From: Crossaster papposus
Lineage: Eukaryota > Echinodermata > Asteroidea > Velatida > Solasteridae
Length of the DNA: 64,000 nt
Reading direction: 5' to 3'
NCBI GenBank assembly: GCA_037893245.1
Contig: JBAIAA010000349.1
Coordinates: forward strand, 186,001-250,000
Shown: positions 8,484-29,168 of the stretch, piece by piece
Layout of the letters: every line of letters starts with the position of its first letter
Numbering within the stretch: the stretch's first letter is position 1
Made by a program: the position numbers and the translations under genes
The notes under the pieces: model-generated
The model's database searches: none
What the model saw: only the letters and a program-made list of their open reading frames with translations
What the model was told of the DNA's origin: nothing

Positions 8484-11400
8484 TTAGCTAGAGTATTTAC
8501 CCACTGCCTGAATGCCCTTCAGGATTTGCAGCAGGTTTTCCAACCCGTACAAGCATCCTTTATTACTAGACTCGATGTCCATTATGCTGACCGGGTCCCG
8601 CTCCGAATTGGCAAAATCGATGATCCGGAGGTCCGTGAGTATACCCGGCTTGTTCGGCTTGTCCTCATCCCCTTCGTACATGAAGAGAAGGGACGTGCTT
8701 AGAAGGCTGAAGGTCGAAATCAAGGACACCGCCAGGATGAGCGCCTCCAATTTCTGAATGAAGGGCGGGAGAAGCTCCATCCTGACTTTGTCGCCGGCTG
8801 AGAAGTACTCCCCGAGCGCCTTCCGAAGGCCATCTTTGCCCATGCGGCGTCCGTCGTACTTGTTGCGGCATTTGTAACAGCCTTTGCTGGGCTGATACAC
8901 CTGTGTGAGAACAAAAAACGATTGCTCTGCAATTCGTTGTCTGAAGGTAATTCTGCAGGTAGTGGGTTCGAGTCCAGCCTGGGGTTGTGGTACGTGTGCC
9001 CTTGGGCAAGGCACTTTGTCACTCATTACTTCTCTACACCCAGGAGTAAATGGGTACCCGTGATGAAGGCAGAGATGGCTATTGTGGTTGATTTAGCTGC
9101 TTTGCGCCGAAATGGCAGCATATATAGAAGCTGCATAATCCTGAGGGAGCTGAGGTTGTATTTGGACTATTTCACTGGCCTAATGATCAGGGGTGATAAT
9201 AGCGATTTGATGTATTTGATGTATTTGAAAGCGTTATATAAGCACCTGTTATTGTAATTAGTAGGAAGGCCAAGTTTGTTTCTTGTACAATGTAATTTTG
9301 CCTCTAAAGATCTTGTTAAGATTGAAATATCAGGTCCTCCTAATATATTTGATCAACAAAACAGCTGCTCAACTTTTGGTTACTCTCTGAAACTAATTTA
9401 TACCTGCATTCCACAAAGGCGCAGGCCTAGTTTAGCTGTGGTGGTCGCCTCATCGCGATCAATGTGCAGCTGGCGTTTGGTCTCCGAGTGATTCTTGTGG
9501 TACGTCTTCGTCCCCAGCTTGACGTCAAGAATGCACGGCGAGCGAAACTTGGACGTCAGGTTCTCTAAAAGAATAAACTCTGAAGAGGGTTTCAACAGTT
9601 ACGGGAAAAATATGTGCCAATTGGGAAAATTGGTGTAGGATGCACACTTTGTTTACGCTTGGTAGATCAAGACTATAAATTGCCTAAAGCAAAATTGCGA
9701 CAGTGACAATTCGCGGCTACGCTTACCATACCAGCGTTGTTAACGGAATTGTGGCAATGGAAATAACGTAGTTGTGGCACGTAATTTTTAACTTCTATTT
9801 TAATTTGTAATTATTGTTCTTATTTTCCCTTCTGAACTTTAGTGCAATTATCGTAAATGTTTCCATTCCTCCATCTTGAAACCTTGATGTAACTCGCGAA
9901 TTCAAGTAGAGATAGTGCTCCGGGGCTACGCATTGGTTGGTCCAGTTGGATTAGCTAGCCAAATCATGCAGCGTTCGTTTTTGGCTATTGGCATGATACA
10001 ATTCCCACATATGTTTTCTTTCAAACTACCAAGTATTGTGTTTATTGGAAAGGGGTGTAATCATACATGCAGCTTACGTTTGGTTTAATTATTATAATGA
10101 TTCTCGGTCACATGGAAAGGACATCAATATTATATATTTTTAGATACCCTACCCAATAAATTAGAATAAATAGGAATTCAAGGAATCTGGAAATATCAAT
10201 ATCTTAAAATATCAAAAGGTCAACTTTACTCTGATTTCGTAGATGCAGGTTATAATATGGTCGACTCTAGTCGCCCAACTAAATTTGCTCTTATTTGTTT
10301 AAGGATACTATGGAGCTTGCTAGAGCCGAAGTCTTTGTGCATGCGGGCCATCTGCAGACGGTTCAGATGCACCCCCCAAGGATTGCCTTTCTCAAACTGT
10401 TGGCGAGTCGTTTTGCTCTCCGAGTGATCTTCAAATAAGTCCTCTTCACTTGAAAATTCTTTGCTGTCCGCCGATTCACTTCTGAAATGAAACACAAATA
10501 GGGTACGTGCATCGATTCGGAAACAAATAATCAAGTACCGGTACCCGACCATTGATGTCAGGAACCGATTCCAGATTATGGAATTGAATAGAATACACAT
10601 ATGGACTGGCAATGAGGTCACAAGAGCACGTCTATTCCCCCGAGGGACTGTGAGTGACCAGAAAGGGACCTATTTCCCGAGGCCGAGAGAAATAGATACT
10701 CCTTCTGGTCATCACTCACAGGCCCGAGGGGGGATAGACGTGCTCTAGTGACCGAATCATGCCAGTCCATATGTTTTATAACACACCTCGGTCCAAAATA
10801 TGAAATAATCGTGATCCGATCCAGACGCCGCCATTTTTCATATTAAGATGAGCCTGGCAAACCTCTTGAGGGCGCTGTAACCAGGCAAAAAATTAAGTCT
10901 ATTGCCCGCTTTAGGAACTATTTCCCGCAAATTCAGGGTGGCGCAAATCTCATGCACTAGCCTATATTAGTTAACCCCACGCGACCTTGCAAGGCCAATA
11001 ATGTCTGTCAGCAGCGAGCAAGGTCGGAAAAGCTTGGGCGTGCTTCCCGGTACCATTGGCCTGAACCTGCCTCGGATCAACCAGAATACAGAACTAGCAA
11101 GAAGCGTGTTATAATCGTTACTAGTGCTGGGGGAGTAGTAATTTTTCCCCACTCGAGTACTCGCAAAGAAATCACTCGCGACTAACAGAGAACAGAGAAG
11201 TAGTTGTCACATTCACAAGGGGTAAGATGACGGTCACACATGTGTTTATCATCATGTGTTTTCATTCAAAGCGTAACAGTAATTTCACAGTGACTTCTGC
11301 TGCAATTTGTTTTCCTTTATCGCTCAAGTTAGAATTGAAAATCAGTAAAAATCATATCGTAAAACCATCGCAATTGTCATTAGTATAGTAGTAGAGTCTG

Positions 11401-21048: not shown

Positions 21049-24000
21049 TTATATGTTGATATTACATTTTTGGATGAAATTAATTATTTCATGCACATTT
21101 AGATTTTCTCCTAATAATTTCTCTATGGTCATTTGAGCATTTGAAAGTCTAAGATTTTTTTGTAGATTGTCCCTTTGTTTTTGATATTTTTTGCACTTAA
21201 TGAGAAAGTGCCCGACATCGTCATATAGGTTACAGGTGTCACATTTTCCATCTGGATGTTTCCCCATCTTATAAAGAAAGCCATTTAAGTTTCTGCAAAC
21301 TCCAAGCCTCAGTCTGTGAAGAATGACTTCTTTCCATCGTGGAAGGTCCCAAGATTTGAAATGTAGCTTGGCCTTTTTTTGAACAATTTTAAAGTTAGAA
21401 GATTTAGTATCTGTCCAAGATTTTTCCCATTTTTCTTCAAGTTCAAGTTTGAGTGTATGTTTTATCTCTGTATCTGACAGAGGGATATTAACTTCAATTT
21501 TATTTTTACGAGTAGCCATTTTTGCTTGCTTGTCTGCTTCCTCATTCCCTTTAATTCCACAGTGTCCTGGGACCCATTCAAAGATGACCATATTGGCTTG
21601 ATGTTGAATATTCAGTAAAGTATGACGAATATCACAGACTATTTTATTATTTGGGATGGGTTCCGAGATGGCTTGAAGAGCACTTAAACAATCACTAAAA
21701 ATACATGTGTTAAGAGGTTTAACTTGTTCAACCCATTCTACTGCAAGGAGGATGGCAAAGAGCTCAGCAGTAAAAATGGAAGCTTCATTGTTGAGACGAA
21801 CATTTTTAGCATATTTAAGTTGAGGGATGACAAAGCCACATCCTGTTCTGTTTAATTTGGGGTTAAATGATCCATCGGTGTAAATCCGAAGATAGTTTGT
21901 CCACCTCGTGTTGATGATTTCAGTGGCAATATGATATTATTGTCAGTAATGTGAACAGTATTGGAGAGAATTTCTTTAGAAATAACAGGCGAGTTGTAAT
22001 GCCAAAACGGAAACGGGTTATGCAGAGGAAAGATGTTAATGGGGATTTGTTGGTATCTTCCTTCATAAGGTGTCCGATGATGAGTATTCGTCCATTTATT
22101 GACATAATATTGTTTTTGCCAATTATCTTCTTGAAGGATTTTATTTAGGTGTAAAAGGTGAGTTTTAAGTTTGATTCCATATAAATTACACATTAATTGA
22201 CGCCGTAATTGGAGAGGAGGGTCACCACATTCAATTTGGAGATTCATTAAAGATGTACCGCGAATAGCTCCTGTACAGATTTTAAGTGACTGATACTGGA
22301 TACTATCAAGTTTAATTTTAATGGAGGTGGCGGCTGAGTCAAAAGCTTCAGATCCGTATATTAGTGGTTTGATCAATGATTTGTAGAGCCGAAAAAGAGT
22401 TTTACAGTCAGCTCCCCAATCATTACCACTAATACATCTGAGGATGTTAAGTTTATTTTTACATTTTTTAATAATGGAATCTATATGATGTTTTCACGTA
22501 AGTTTGTGGTCAAAGATTATTCCTAAGAATTTGGCAGTTTTACTTAAATTAATATTAACCTTGTTTATGTCAAGTTTCATGTTAGTATTAAGTTTGTTAG
22601 AAAATAGAACCGCAATTGTTTTAGAGGTAGATATTTTAAAACCCCATTTGTCACACCAGCATTTAATAGCATTAAGGTTATATTGAATTTTCTTTTTTAG
22701 GAAGTTAATATTTCTATGGGATTTCCAGATAGCGATATCGTCTGCAAATTGGGATATCTTAGCACCAACAATATTATTGGGTAAATCATTAACAGCAATG
22801 TTAAAAAGAATAGGGCTGATAACACTTCCTTGAGGAACACCATTTTTAAGTTCTCGTGGATCAGAGAGAATACCATTTACATTAACTTGAATTTTCCTAT
22901 TTTTAAGAAAGTTATCAATCCATAAGGTGATTCTGCCATAAATACCTAAAGCTTGAAGTTTAATGATGATGCCTTTTCGCCAAAGCATATCGTAAGCCTT
23001 TTCAATATCTAAAAACACAGTAAGGGTACTTTCCTTGTTAACGAAGGCCTTGTTAATGGAGGACTCTAGTTGGATGATATGATCTTTAGTACTACGGCCC
23101 TTTCGAAAGCCACTCTGATGACAGTCTAATAGGTTATGATTTTCAAGGTACCATATTAATCTAGTATTGACCATTCGTTCCATAAGTTTACATAAAGTTG
23201 ATGTAAGAGCAATGGGCCTGTAAGATAATGGATCATCAGCTTTCTTCCCTGGTTTTAGTAAAGGGATAATAATAGCTTCTTTCCAACTACTAGGACACTG
23301 TGCGGAAATCCAAATTAAGTTAAAAATTGTGAGAAGATAGTTGCGAATTTTCACAGGAAACCTTTTGATAATATTGTTGCTGATTTTATCCTTCCCAGGA
23401 GTAGTACATTTACTCTTATCAATGGCCTTATTGAGTTCAGCTGTAGTGAATGGTTCATTGATAGCATTATCATTGTTGTTATTAATGAATATGTCTTTTT
23501 CGGCATCTTTTTTAATTTTCTGGAAATCATCATTATAATTGGAATCACTAGAAATATTTGAGAAACTTTCAGCAAGATAGTCAGCTTTTTGTTTGTCCGA
23601 AATTATGTTAATATCATTCTTTTTAAGAATGGGAATGTTACGGTTTGACTGGGATTTATTAATACGTTTGATTTTATTCCATATAGTTTTGGAAGGGGTG
23701 TGGCAGTTTATTTCGTTGCAAAAATTCTCCCAATCCTTCTTTTTGGCAGCCTTTATGGTTTTACGTGCAATAGCTTTGGCTCTTTTATAAGCTATTAAGT
23801 CGGCTGGGAGGGAGGTTTTCTGAAGGGTTTTCAAAAATTGCTTTTTTGCAGTCTTCATTCCACCAAGGAGTAGTACTTTTGTTAGTTTTGGAGGGGTTGG
23901 TCATTGGAATGGCGTGGTTTATAGCAGACGTTAATTGGTTAACAAAGGTGTTGTAAACCTCTTCAGTGTTGTCAGAGTGATCAGGTTCAGTGATTAATTC

Positions 24001-24765
24001 ATCACAGGCTTTCTCAAATTTAGCCCAGTCAGCTTTCTTAATAGACCAGCGAGGGACTTGATTAGTAGGGGTATTGTAACAGGAACGATCACAGTTAATC
24101 ATAATGGGATAGTGATCGCTGCCCCAAGTATTGTCAAGAACTTTCCAAGTACAATTTGCAGCTATTCCTGAAGTGGTAATAGTGATGTCAATACAAGACA
24201 CATTGCCATTGATAGGATTTATTCTAGTGCCATCACCATTATTAATACAAACTAGATTATGGTTAATCAAAAAGTTTCCAACAGTGTTGCCATTTTTGTC
24301 TATGTTAATGCTTCCCCAGAGGGGGTTGTGGCTATTGAAGTCACCACATATAATAAAAACTTTGTCAATTTTTTCCACAATCTCATTAATATGACAATCT
24401 TCGAGATTTAAACAAGGATTGTAAACATTAGCAATGTACCATTTTTTATTATTTTTGTCATAAATTTCCATAATTTGAAATTCGATAGGGTCTTGATGGT
24501 TGCAAATATAATTAACAGCAAGACCTTTTTTAGTCAAGATGGCAGTACCACCACCTTGTTTCTTGGAGTCATTATTTCTGTCGTTTCTGTATATATTGTA
24601 CCCGGGTAAATTAAAATTACGATTTGTTTTGAGCCATGTTTCTTGAATGCATATAATGTCTGGTTTATCAGTGAGGTCATTTATAGCATTCTTAAATTCA
24701 TTACCATGTGCAATAAGTGATTGTGCATTCCATTGAAGTATGAAAACCATGATGAGAAAATTCAT
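21049..24765 (-). pseudogene. LINE ORF2: endonuclease, reverse transcriptase, RNase H, broken
   Basis: Endonuclease frame 24765-23785 shows QWNAQSL, IICIQETWL, GDFNSHNPLWG and SDHYPI. The reverse transcriptase frame 23858-22494 shows YRPIALTSTLCKLMERMV, SGFRKGRST, FLDIEKAYD, GVPQGSVISPILF and the catalytic FADD. The C-terminal connection 22376-21852 continues in the same frame after one TGA at 22494-22496. RNase H lies in another frame from about 21900 to 21049, with the acidic residues visible in YTDGS, FTAEL, FSDCLSA and EEADKQAK. So there is one frame change between endonuclease and RT (about 23800-23860), one premature stop after the RT core, and one frame change near 21900. All catalytic motifs are preserved, so decay is recent. 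The ATG at 24765 overlaps the ORF1 stop (ATGA). Confidence 0.85.
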
Positions 24766-26330
24766 GTTGAGGTCTTACTGTTCCTGCCTTTGTTATTTTG
24801 ACTTGAGCTTCGAGTGGATGTACTTGCTGGTGGTCCCATTTGGGATTTGTCAGTTGGTTCCTGCTTCTTACTTTGAGATTGTTTTTGTGATTGGTTTCGC
24901 ATTTTTGTGGCATCAGGTGATTGTGATGGAACTCTGGTTTTTCTTTGTTGGTTAGTTTCTTTAGGTGAGGAAATTTCACTAGTCTGGGTAGTTGATAGTA
25001 TTTGTTTAACAAGTGATTTGACTGCTGCAGTTTTGTCATCTTTCTTCTTCATATTATCCAAGATTTGCATGGTTCCTAGTAGAAGATCTATGATTTGCTC
25101 AGGTTTGATGACCATAGAAGGTGCAGTTGGTTCCGTTTGTGTTCCTATTATTTTGTCCGTTTGAGTAGATGCGTCCACAGTTTGTGTATTCGTTGCTTGA
25201 GCGGTTCTTTTGTTACTGATTTGTACCGGTATGTGTTCAACTATTTTGCTTTGTGTAGGTACTGTGTTCGAATTTGTGACTGTTGACATGGTTGAGGGGG
25301 TTTGTACATCATCTGTTCTAGTTATAGTGAAGTTGGTTTTAACTGTTTTTGCAGCCTCAGCATATGATATTTTACAGTTTACTCTGATTCCTTGAATTTT
25401 CTTTTCATCTTTTATTGTGGCACATCCACCATATGCGGATGAGTGGTTACCACCGCATCTGCAGCATCGAACCTGGTCTCGTTGAGTACATGTTTCATAG
25501 TTGTCATTTCCACCACAGCGTACACATCGGGTTTTTGCGCGACATCTATTTGCAACGTGTCCCAGTCTCTGGCAATTAAAACAACGAATAACCGGGGGGA
25601 CATATGGTTTAACTTCAAATAGCTCGTATCCCAGCTGAAAGCGAGATGGTAAATTAGGCGTGTTGAAAGTTAAACACACAGAAAGACTATTTTCAATATG
25701 CCCATCTCTTTTACGTGTGAGTCTCTTAGCTTCGATAACCCCTGATTTTTTGCCATAGTCCAAGATGTCTTGTTCAGGGATGTCAGTTGGAAGGCCTGTT
25801 ATTACTCCTTTACTTTGGATTTCCGACTTTGCATATTATGTTTCTACAGACCATTTACCTAGATGGTTTATTGTTTTCAACTTTTGAGCCTGGGCAGAGT
25901 TGTGGCATTTGACAGTAATTCCCCCCTTGTTGTTTTTGGTGACATTTTTGATGAGATTGTGACCGACAGAGTTTAGAGCATTAGCAATCTTGATAGGGTT
26001 TATGCTGGCTAGTCTAACATCAGGTGAGGTTATGATAATCAAGGTTGGATTGCATTGGGGTGTGTCATTTATGTAGCGGCGCTTTGGTCGTCGATCAACT
26101 GGCATACCTGACTGGTCGGATTCGCTGGGTGATTCACTCTGACATTCACTAGCTTGTCTTTTTCTGTTACTGTTAGATTTTGAAGGTGGAGTGTCACTAT
26201 CCTGAGCTTGGCTTATTAGTCTTTCGATTGTAGATTGCGGTTTAGGATTTGGTCTGAAACCTTCTTGATTTTTCTGAGATATTGAGTCCCACCACATGTC
26301 ATCTTCACCTTGGTCATGTTCGTCGGCCAT
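24762..26330 (-). pseudogene. LINE ORF1 (gag-like, CCHC zinc knuckles), one nonsense codon
   Basis: Starts at ATG 26330 and ends at TGA 24764-24762. The frame is continuous apart from one TAA at 25838-25836. The N-terminal part is polar with an RRM-like segment before and after the stop (GLPTDIPEQDIL follows it). The C-terminal part has CFNCQRLGHVANRC (CX2CX4HX4C), then CVRCGGNDNYETC and CCRCGGNHSSAYGGC. The middle knuckle has Asp where His would be expected. The downstream tail is Q/S/K-rich. ORF1 proteins of this group bind element RNA. Confidence 0.8.
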
Positions 26331-26615
26331 ATTGGCCGTTCAGAATGGGTGTGAAACCCGTTAAGAAAAACGGGCACCCTAAACTGCTAGAGAAATGAAA
26401 GGAACTAGGTGTATAACAAATAAAGCCCTAAAATGTGAATGTTATTATGAAATAATGATCTCTGGGTTGTAAAAGTTAAAGCCGTACCTTTAGACAGTAC
26501 ACATAAGCATCCGCTGCAGTAGAGGAGAAAAACAACACGTCCGTTCTCTTCCAAAGCTCAGCCGAGAGTCCAAAAAACGGGGGAATATACATTACATTGC
26601 CTTGGTCATTTATTG

Positions 26616-28236
26616 CCCTAGACGGTGTCAGGTCAACTCGCCCCCTGACCGACTCGCCCCTTACCTACTCGCCCCTTTCCAACTCGCCCCCTGACCGACT
26701 CGCCCCCTGACCGACTCGCCCCTTACTAACTCGCCCCCTGACCGACTCGCCCCCTGGCCGACTCGCCTCCTGACCGACTCGCCCCCTGACCGACTCGCCC
26801 CCTGGTTTGATTTACATGTATTTTTAATTCTATAATTTGTATCATTTGCCCTCGTAGAACTTAACAACTGAAAAGACGATGTGGGTAAACTTTTTCCTTG
26901 ATTATTTTCTTGCATAGGCCCTAATCTCGATTATTTTTATCTAAGTTTTAGAAAATACCTTTTGATGTTCGTTTCGGTGGTGGAAATTAAAGACAAAGTA
27001 GTAGGCCTAAATCCTCGAAGCCAAAAAAGTTAAACTCATAACAATTTATTTATACATTTATATATTTAAAGAAAATTGGGGGGGGGGGGGGGGAATAATC
27101 ATGTTTGGTTCTTGTTTTTATGAGTTTTTTTCGGAGCGCGGGGGGACAAGTTGATCGCATAATTTGATGCGATTTTGTTTACTGCTTTCCAACCCAATAG
27201 GGCTTTTCAAGGAAGCTATATAGGGAATCTGTCAATCACTCCACCATTCAGTTCTTTGTTACGAAAACCAACGCTCTTACTGAGGGATTGAACTGGGTGT
27301 TACGACGCTCATCTACAAAACTGTCGGCTCCCTCTGATCAGTCCGCCAAACGTGGTGAAAGATGGTGAAAAACCCAGATCAAAAAGCTGACAGTGAATAC
27401 AATAAAGTCGCTAATTTGACCAATGAGGCCGGTTGCTACTTTTGGAGAAGGGGGGACTGTTTTTGGTATTTTGTATGTCCAATGGTGTTAAATGTGATTT
27501 TCACATTTTATAAGACGTTTGGTATGTCGTGTTAGACCTGAGAATATTCAGAACATAAAAAGCACGAACTTTTTAAAGACACATCCATAAACTGTTTTTA
27601 TGCATGCTTTAGGGTGGGTTTTTGCGGGGCACGCGAACGATTTGCGAAGGATGCGAATGCCAAAAAAATTGCAAAGTCAACATTCGTATTTTTAATTTTC
27701 CAAAAGTTTGCCAAACATGCGCGGGGGTTCGGAATCGTCGTCATTTATTGTTCGCGGGAGTCCAGTCTAGTCCATCACATTGTAGATTTCTCCTTAATTA
27801 TAATATTTGAATCATTTCTTTGTATGCCTAATGTAAATAAATTGTACACAACTTGAGGAAGAATATTATTAGAAAGTTGTCCGTTTCCATTGATTTCTTG
27901 GAAGTCGCATTCTTGCAGCCTATTTTTTGCTTCCTCTGATCAGTCCGCAAAATATCTAAGTTGAGAGTTCGTTTTTATTCCTCAAAATGACGAATTTTAT
28001 GGTAACGAATATACATGATGTACATCGATCGTACAAGGTCCATAAATCAAACGAGGGGGCGAGTCGGTCAGGGGGCGAGTCGGTCAGGAGGCGAGTCGGC
28101 CAGGGGGCGAGTCGGTCAGGGGGCGAGTTAGTAAGGGGCGAGTCGGTCAGGGGGCGAGTCGGTCAGGGGGCGAGTTGGTAAGGGGCGAGTAGGTAAGGGG
28201 CGAGTCGGTCAGGGGGCGAGTTGACCTACCCTAGAC
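26616..28236. mobile_element. Foldback (TU-like) transposon with tandem-repeat inverted ends
   Basis: Two inverted arms of 185 bp (26630-26814 and 28043-28227) match except at two positions. Each arm consists of 11 tandem 15-16-bp units, GACTCGCCCCCTGACC with variants such as GACTCGCCCCTTACC, and ends inward with GTTTGATTTA. The unit order is the same in both arms. CCCTAGAC occurs just outside both arms (26616-26623 and 28229-28236) and could be an 8-bp target duplication, though the left copy is 6 bp and the right copy 1 bp from the arm. Sea urchin TU elements and Drosophila FB elements share this design, as I recall: inverted ends made of short tandem repeats, with 8-9-bp duplications. The interior (26815-28042) has no transposase-like frame, so it is non-autonomous. 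Confidence 0.8.
26815..28042. other. Interior of the foldback element
   Basis: About 1.2 kb of unique, mostly AT-rich sequence with a poly-G run at about 27079-27093. The open frame 27614-27856 has no recognised similarity. No transposase, integrase or helicase motifs were seen. Confidence 0.5.
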
Positions 28237-28304
28237 CATGAAGGAATAAGAAGGAATTCCTCCATCCCCAGACCAGACCTCACTCGGTGCATTGCATAAG
28301 AACA

Positions 28305-28465
28305 CGAGAGACAATATTGAATGCTTCGAGTGGTGCAGTAAAACTACAGCCTTCCGAGGTTATCCATGGAGCAATCTGTAGATGCTCCATGGATCACCAA
28401 GGGAGGCTAGTTTTACTACACCAAGAGATAAGCATTCAATATTTGTTTTATAACACCTCACTCAC
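28305..28465. mobile_element. Foldback MITE ending in TGTTTTATAACA
   Basis: AATATTGAATGCTTC with CCTCCC/GGGAGG arms and an ATCCATGGAGCA/TGCTCCATGGAT hairpin near 28360-28394, then GCATTCAATATT and TGTTTTATAACA. Same distal motif as 10596-10790 and 60365-60530. Confidence 0.6.
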
Positions 28466-28847
28466 ATATTCTGCTTGGTTTTAATATTTTAACAACATCT
28501 AAATCTAAATACAGTTAAAATGAACGATTTCAATTTTCAAAATTGGTGGAAAATGTCTGCTCTTTTCTAAACAAGACAAAAGTAGAATCTTTGACAAAAT
28601 CAAGATAAAAGTTTGAAGTTCTGTAAGTTTTTTAGCAATAATTATTAATTAACTATTTCAAAGCCTTATTTGCAAGCCGCTCTAGCTCTAACAACACTTG
28701 TCAGTTTGCATCTCAGCTTGCATTTATAAGCAACACAACAATGTAAACATTCCTATTTACTACCTCTGTATTTAGATTTACTTATAATACTGTATGGAGT
28801 CTTGAAGAGTCTGCTTGCTATTGTCAACGGGCTCCACCCGATAGTTC
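28466..28847. other. Intergenic, nothing recognised
   Basis: AT-rich sequence without exons or identifiable repeats. Confidence 0.35.
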
Positions 28848-29168
28848 GAAGGTTCGATAGTCCGAAGGTTTATTGATCCAAAGGTTCGACAGTCCGAACA
28901 CACACCTTTCCCATAAGCGGGGGTTCATTAGTCCGAAAACGAAATACTGGTTCGGTAATCCGAACATTTGATGCGATTGTCCGAAGGTTCATTTAGTCTG
29001 AAGGTTCGAAAATCCGAAGGTTCGTTGGTCCGAGGGTTCGATAGTCTGAAATGAAAATGTTCAATAGTCCGAACTTCGGACGATTGAACATTTTCATTTC
29101 GGACTATTGAACCTAACGGAACGTTCAGTCATTATAATCCGAAGGCACACAAGGTTCGATAGTTTTTG
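28848..29168. repeat. Degenerate GGTTCGATAGTCCGAA array with palindrome
   Basis: Roughly 15-20 irregularly spaced units of TTCG(A/G)...TCCGAA such as GGTTCGATAGTCCGAA occur in one orientation, then a long perfect hairpin (about 29043-29108; GAAATGAAAATGTTCAATAG pairing with its complement around CGAACTTCG), then inverted units. The unit itself is close to palindromic. Confidence 0.7.

Follow-up and report, generated by a model that had tools for sequence, protein, structure and literature searches.

The window, the 64,000-nucleotide stretch of the Crossaster papposus genome that was analyzed, contains a 1605-bp element at positions 26624-28228. Perfect 8-bp target duplications (CCCTAGAC) adjoin it exactly at 26616-26623 and 28229-28236, as the flanking repeat noted in the initial annotation implied. 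The inverted arms (26630-26814 and 28043-28227) are 185 nt each and 99% complementary; they mismatch at two places, positions 49 and 175 when numbered from 26630. The longest exact word common to both arms is 125 nt, compared to 12 nt or fewer in 50 mononucleotide shuffles. The left end begins with a 12-bp terminal motif (GGTGTCAGGTCA, 26624-26635, plus strand) and continues into an array at 26636-26804 (plus strand) with the core ACTCG. Its units measure 15-16 bp; ten are complete, in the order ABCAADAEFA, and an eleventh is partial. The right array (28053-28221, minus strand), read inward, has the matching order ABGAADAEFA followed by its own partial unit. Thus, the earlier description of 185-bp arms with 11 units in the same order and two differences is confirmed, except that the eleventh unit is partial. 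The right terminal motif (28222-28228, minus strand) is cut to 7 bp and reads TAGGTCA in place of GATTGTAGGTCA; it lacks the outer five bases, CAATC, that adjoin the duplication in most other copies. Arms of this family take the form GGTGTCAGG..ACTCGCCCC, where ACTCGCCCC is the unit. Inverted terminal arms made mostly of short tandem units are a type-2 foldback feature.

The middle of the element (26805-28052) is non-coding, although the ten bases at either edge of it (26805-26814 and 28043-28052) are part of the inverted repeat. The longest stop-to-stop frame in the interior is 104 aa. Pfam profiles gave no match at E 0.1 to 8 interior frames, and Rfam gave no match reaching the gathering score across 26500-28400. 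Nothing recognized is encoded in the element, in agreement with the initial annotation, which saw no enzyme.

The window has other features. Frames of a non-LTR retrotransposon that match endonuclease, reverse transcriptase, and RNase H occupy 21049-26339 on the minus strand; a zinc-knuckle match falls just below the cut-off, and the foldback element follows immediately to the right of the retrotransposon's 5' side. At 28839-29113, GTCCGAAGGTTCG units of 16 bp form another minisatellite, next to a 39-bp inverted repeat, and this is possibly the remnant of another array-ended element. An inositol polyphosphate kinase match (Pfam IPK, 9.9e-22) at 8484-9092 on the minus strand is perhaps a host gene exon.

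The assembly searched has 1841 contigs with a total of 1,023,315,904 bases. First-look candidates in it numbered 925 for the arm query and 1370 for the interior query (26815-28042), and 40 candidates from each were scored. The exact 17-bp left terminus GGTGTCAGGTCAACTCG occurs 325 times in the genome and the right terminus GATTGTAGGTCAACTCG occurs 338 times, and the reversed control of each occurs 0 times. The family has two end types, GGTGTC.. on the left and GATTGT.. on the right. These counts contradict the case, raised at the outset, that the arms exist only here and in no other copy. In contig C1841, COX1 and COX2 translate with conserved residues (such as N in STNHKDIG) under mitochondrial table 9 (AAA = N, ATA = I, AGA = S, TGA = W) and not under tables 2, 4, or 5. 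Echinoderms and flatworms both use table 9; the likeness of the proteins and the position of COX2 shortly after COX1 make an echinoderm the most likely host. In the same assembly, contig C8 (>5.2 Mb) carries intron-less COX1 frames in the standard code, one of 682 aa, and is possibly a bacterial chromosome.

Target duplications were read at 26 places chosen by arm likeness, and 24 of these have perfect 8-bp duplications. L003 and L006 were left out of this count, the former as a duplicate of L002 and the latter as the same place as L009. The two exceptions are L007, whose stretch does not contain the right end, and L023, which has no duplication. Ten further copies were chosen by interior likeness from those absent from the arm list; 3 have perfect duplications, 2 have duplications that agree over the available bases, 1 (L033/L034) disagrees, and 4 are unreadable. 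An additional matching base lies to the left of the 8-bp duplication in 8 of 24 copies, and a target-site consensus sought across copies amounts to weak preferences only. The joined flanks of 24 copies were compared with the loci retrieved, and no match spanning an empty site was found. The arm search returned many other copies flanked by their own target duplications. The inverted tandem-unit arms, the 8-bp duplications, and the dispersed copies together bear out the claim of a foldback transposon.

Pairing of the 100 listed left termini (of 325) with 80 of the 100 listed right termini (of 338) gave 54 left-right pairs, 42 of which measure 939-1698 bp; 46 of the 100 left termini have no exact partner among the listed right termini. 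Ten loci of odd length or with odd ends were read by eye. Perfect 8-bp duplications flank seven of them (L049, L050, L051, L055, L058, L059, and L060) and are missing from L052, L056, and L057.

Several copies occur in unusual arrangements. A short foldback derivative directly adjoins a fuller copy in L002, L003, and L026, with a duplication between the two that has one mismatch in L002 and L003; the arrangement looks as if unequal exchange had occurred at one site. L051 and L058, on two contigs, have a common duplication (ATTAATTC), common private arm units, and agreement over the few available flanking bases, and each holds different extra sequence inside. They look like one insertion, represented as haplotypes or as a duplication. 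At C279:3444747-3547538, at least 8 right termini stand in pairs 7.7 kb apart that recur every 29-35 kb, and this series is apparently a larger tandem array carrying the end of the element.

A copy with a transposase gene between the same arms was sought among the long pairs. Eight of the 11 pairs longer than 1.8 kb, among the 54 formed, were read (L049, L050, L051, L052, L057, L058, L059, and L060). Parts of the family interior are present in them, and the extra sequence around these parts looks nested or rearranged. Seven L049 frames gave no transposase match in Pfam. The other seven long pairs have no listed frame >140 aa in a listing that partly leaves out array-unit frames, and an intron-split gene could still be present in them. 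No gene for a Mutator-like (MULE) transposase was found between exactly window-type arms in these 8 of 11 long pairs, which derive from 100 of the 325 left termini. A few of the partnerless left termini were followed (C35 and C1).

MULE genes are present elsewhere in the genome. A search with the PF10551 (MULE) profile gave at least 79 matches, with 150 of 225 candidates scored. Only one of the 79 places (L061, on C1) is no more than 15 kb away from any of the listed termini, and that terminus belongs to a separate sister element. L061 contains an open 633-aa frame with a PF10551 match over the cut-off (1.2e-12, 48.5 bits). The frame lies between inverted arrays of unit CAACTCGTACCTTCGT, the far one running past the retrieved stretch, and the L061-type element's own array units are ACTCGTACC. 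The frame also has a PHD match (PF00628, E 2.9e-4) that at 21.2 bits is below the cut-off of 24, and it does not lie between window-type arms. The first 1.3 kb of L061 (21-1275) holds the sister element, a non-coding foldback of the ACTCGGACCC family with the exact left terminus and the unit CAACTCGGACCCAAAC, and the MULE element lies 3 kb beyond it. The base following the left terminus is not C in 61 of the 325 occurrences and is mostly G, as in this GGACCC sister element.

Arrays were sought in the 901-bp downstream flanks of 20 other MULE matches, a non-random set in which 18 were taken for a hit shape like that of L061 and one side of each was read; 11 flanks have period-16 arrays, 2 have 21-bp arrays, and 7 have neither. 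The period-16 core is ACTCGTAC in 7 flanks and TTTCGTAC in 4. For comparison, 255,779 bp taken from 20 loci plus the window contain 3 arrays of this kind outside window-type elements, a rate at which about 0.2 would be expected in 18 kb versus the 11 observed. ACTCG is followed by TA in the MULE units versus CC in the units of the window family.

The termini of the MULE elements were compared with those of the window family, with element edges set by where the flanks diverge, not by duplications. Shuffle values refer to the better of the two termini and are uncorrected for that choice: the outer 17 bases of L061 and L063 (GCTTTCGAGTCAACTCG) agree with the left terminus at 13 of 17 positions (2e-5) and with the right terminus at 12, and those of L070-L072 (GAATGTCGGTCGTTTCG) agree with the right terminus at 12 of 17 (1.7e-4) and with the left at 8. 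Both alignments run in register. On the same uncorrected basis, the outer 11 bases alone give 7 matches for L061/L063 (0.015) and 9 for L070-L072 (0.0004). The L067 terminus differs from GAATGTCGGTCGTTTCG by one base, and L065 has CAGGTCAACTCG, which by eye is identical to the left terminus over 12 bases. The L074 terminus lacks the shared motif, and the sequences of L062, L069, L073, and L078 either stop short of the outer end or show no recognizable one. Thus, the window family has ends that resemble those of MULE-encoding elements, though not at all loci, and its 8-bp duplications fall within the MULE range of 8-10 bp. Of the autonomous partner predicted in the initial annotation, the pairs read gave no example with the same arms; what the genome does contain is MULE elements with related arms. 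A separate pair of TTCGTACCC-type 16-bp arrays, on opposite strands about 1.2 kb apart, occurs at L014 6087-7414 and may represent a non-coding element related to the MULE families of L070-L072.

The related 16-bp arrays and related termini at several MULE loci indicate an enzyme of the MULE kind, and these sequence comparisons make a MULE transposase the most likely enzyme to move the window family. The window element is best explained, with a probability that we put at about 0.8, as a recently inserted type-2 foldback element, a non-autonomous cut-and-paste DNA transposon that would be served by a MULE transposase in trans. The element is filed only as working like a MULE and not as a proven one. 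The transposase supplied in trans would bind the repeated units, pair the two ends, and insert the element by an 8-bp staggered cut. The many units per arm would raise binding avidity by multivalent binding, and unit number would shift through unequal pairing or slippage within the arrays.

The same kind of element could instead be moved by another superfamily that makes 8-bp duplications, such as hAT, a P/Galileo-like enzyme, or Merlin. Duplications of 8 bp are typical of hAT and are also made by Merlin families, and the foldback arms of Galileo, of the P superfamily, carry tandem repeats that are bound by its THAP domain. However, the unit core and some of the termini match arrays that flank MULE genes in the same genome; this counts only indirectly against the other superfamilies, which we consider improbable.

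The initial annotation took the near-identity of the two arms to mean a very young insertion or arms homogenized by gene conversion. Both arm differences were followed across the family. The first, in unit 3, is TTTCCA on the left and TTACC[AG] on the right. TTTCCA is present in 38 of 46 left arms versus 0 of 43 right arms; the 43 do not include the shortened right end of the window copy. TTACC[AG] occurs near the unit-3 place in 35 of the 43 right arms, and the other 8 have no marker. All 8 left arms without TTTCCA belong to the odd-length or odd-end loci, 7 of the 10 being represented, and 3 of these arms (L049, L055, and L059) have a TTACC[AG] unit there. The second difference, at the inner edge, is CTG on the left and CTC on the right. 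CTG is found in 24 of 24 left arms, and CTC is found in all right arms (n = 24) read that far except L005, which has CTG, and L016, which has a deletion. The arm distance within elements is 0.0499 versus 0.0495 between elements (22 of 24 elements; L021 and L026 were left out of the distance calculations).

Both differences are therefore family end markers, and two arms from the same element differ as much as arms from different elements, which points to inheritance of the arm likeness from the founder. On this comparison, arm likeness dates the founder of the family, which would have had nearly identical arms, and not the window insertion. The age of the insertion was judged from its interior. 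Across 1248 interior bases, the window copy has a single private substitution, where 22 copies range from 0 to 13, and its nearest relative, L002, is 0.3% away by substitutions, with 15 alignment columns differing when gaps are counted. By this measure the insertion looks young, so the youth proposed earlier stands and its deduction from arm likeness does not. Distances are 0.45% for left arms, 2.8% for right arms, and 3.8% for interiors, and better conservation of arms than interiors is not claimed from these values because this first sample was chosen by left-arm likeness and the ten interior-chosen copies were drawn from outside the arm list.

The expectation that such arrays change copy number quickly is borne out, as unit number varies among copies. 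Gain and loss of units are seen in the right arms of the arm-chosen set and in both arms of the ten interior-chosen copies. The interiors of L013 and L019 are 0.09% apart, yet their right arms differ in 4 of 10 units. L056 holds about 36 units. The left arm of L052 consists of 12 identical hybrid units.

A second alternative holds that the arms are near-identical because, within each copy, gene conversion from end to end keeps them alike. Exchange between arms does seem to occur, with signs limited to the copies selected for unusual length or termini. L055 has the left terminus at both ends, one of them on a right-arm body, within a duplication that is perfect by eye (AACCAAAC); with this duplication intact, two left termini appear compatible with transposition. 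In L056, the right terminus is joined to a left-arm body and there is no duplication. The left arm of L059 holds the right-arm marker, one unusual unit is present in both arms of L060, and L049, perhaps a further case, has TTACCG at unit 3 of its left arm. However, arms within an element are as distant as arms between elements, the end markers persist across the family, and the homogenization in L052 is confined to the left side, its right arm still having units in mixed order. The window copy retains both end markers, which contradicts conversion there. Gene conversion is thus very unlikely as the source of the arm likeness and is not supported as a deduction from it. The remaining alternative named in the initial annotation, an artefact in which one arm was assembled twice, found no support and is extremely unlikely, as the arms bear end-specific differences that recur across the family and 24 of 26 places show the same structure between duplications that differ from place to place. 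Inheritance from the founder accounts for the arms, and the many copies show that near-identical foldback arms need signal neither youth nor gene conversion, since each arm retains the markers of its own end.

A broader reading, which we advance tentatively and consider possible rather than probable, is that one MULE clade with a PHD-like finger drives several foldback families, sea urchin TU elements included, whose 16-bp arrays share a core and serve as an address code. The core would be ACTCG or TTTCG, two variable bases, and C, with the remainder of the unit specific to each family, and co-evolving transposases would read the array as an address. Non-coding users of this code would include the ACTCGGACCC sister family and the window family, which have an exact left terminus in common.

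Sea urchin TU elements reportedly combine an echinoderm host, an outer arm of 15-bp repeats, 8-bp duplications, and heterogeneous middles, and a resemblance of the window family to them is plausible by analogy. To our knowledge, echinoderm foldback elements have been known since 1983 and have no assigned transposase. The open-access literature searched contains no sea urchin foldback transposase by title or by the start of the abstract. MULE now becomes a concrete candidate enzyme for echinoderm foldback elements. A 1983 Nature reference on TU elements is listed in the bibliography of PMC4079207.

Structural parallels come from MULE systems. In the cited passages of PMC3169594, the Tm1 Mutator/Foldback elements of root-knot nematodes have distinct outer-end motifs followed by arrays in which the number of 13-15-bp units varies, duplications of 8-10 bp (mostly 9 bp), non-coding members, and a nested insert in one copy. 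Their transposase belongs to the Phantom (FLYWCH) subclass, and the arms of one element average 93.15% identity. The two distinct outer motifs, the variable unit arrays, the duplication range of 8-10 bp, the non-coding members, and nested inserts are shared with the window family. Tm1 as described there differs in its unit and terminal sequences, in its mostly 9-bp duplications, and in a Phantom (FLYWCH) transposase versus the weak PHD match in L061. The Aedes aegypti MULEs Muta1 and Muta5, as described in the cited part of PMC5225508, have TIRs of 145 and 151 bp with a terminal motif and 9 repeats at ~15-bp spacing, 8- or 9-bp duplications, and >300 and >200 derivatives, respectively. Muta1 derivatives vary in unit number, the element is termed a type-2 foldback, and its transposition was shown. 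The short terminal motif with ~15-bp repeats, the 8-bp duplications, and the many derivatives are like those of the window family. In contrast, the passages cited place the Muta1 and Muta5 transposase genes between the same arms, the sequences are different, and only 8-bp duplications were recognized in the window family.

Rehavkus, as outlined in the cited section of PMC6446971, has a MULE-related transposase with a PHD finger, a minisatellite, and 9-bp duplications and is found in arthropods and annelids. The combination of PHD, MULE, and arrays is like that of L061, where the PHD match is below the Pfam cut-off; the 9-bp duplications given for Rehavkus are unlike the 8-bp duplications in 24 of 26 copies of the window family. 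Galileo, in the cited portions of PMC3688188 and PMC3573991, has long arms with tandem units, and the DNA-binding domain of its transposase binds sites in the arm repeats. Long tandem-unit arms are the likeness to the window family, and a P-superfamily transposase versus a MULE candidate is the difference. The architecture is thus already known from Tm1 and Muta1/Muta5, and the window family is an additional type-2 foldback family.
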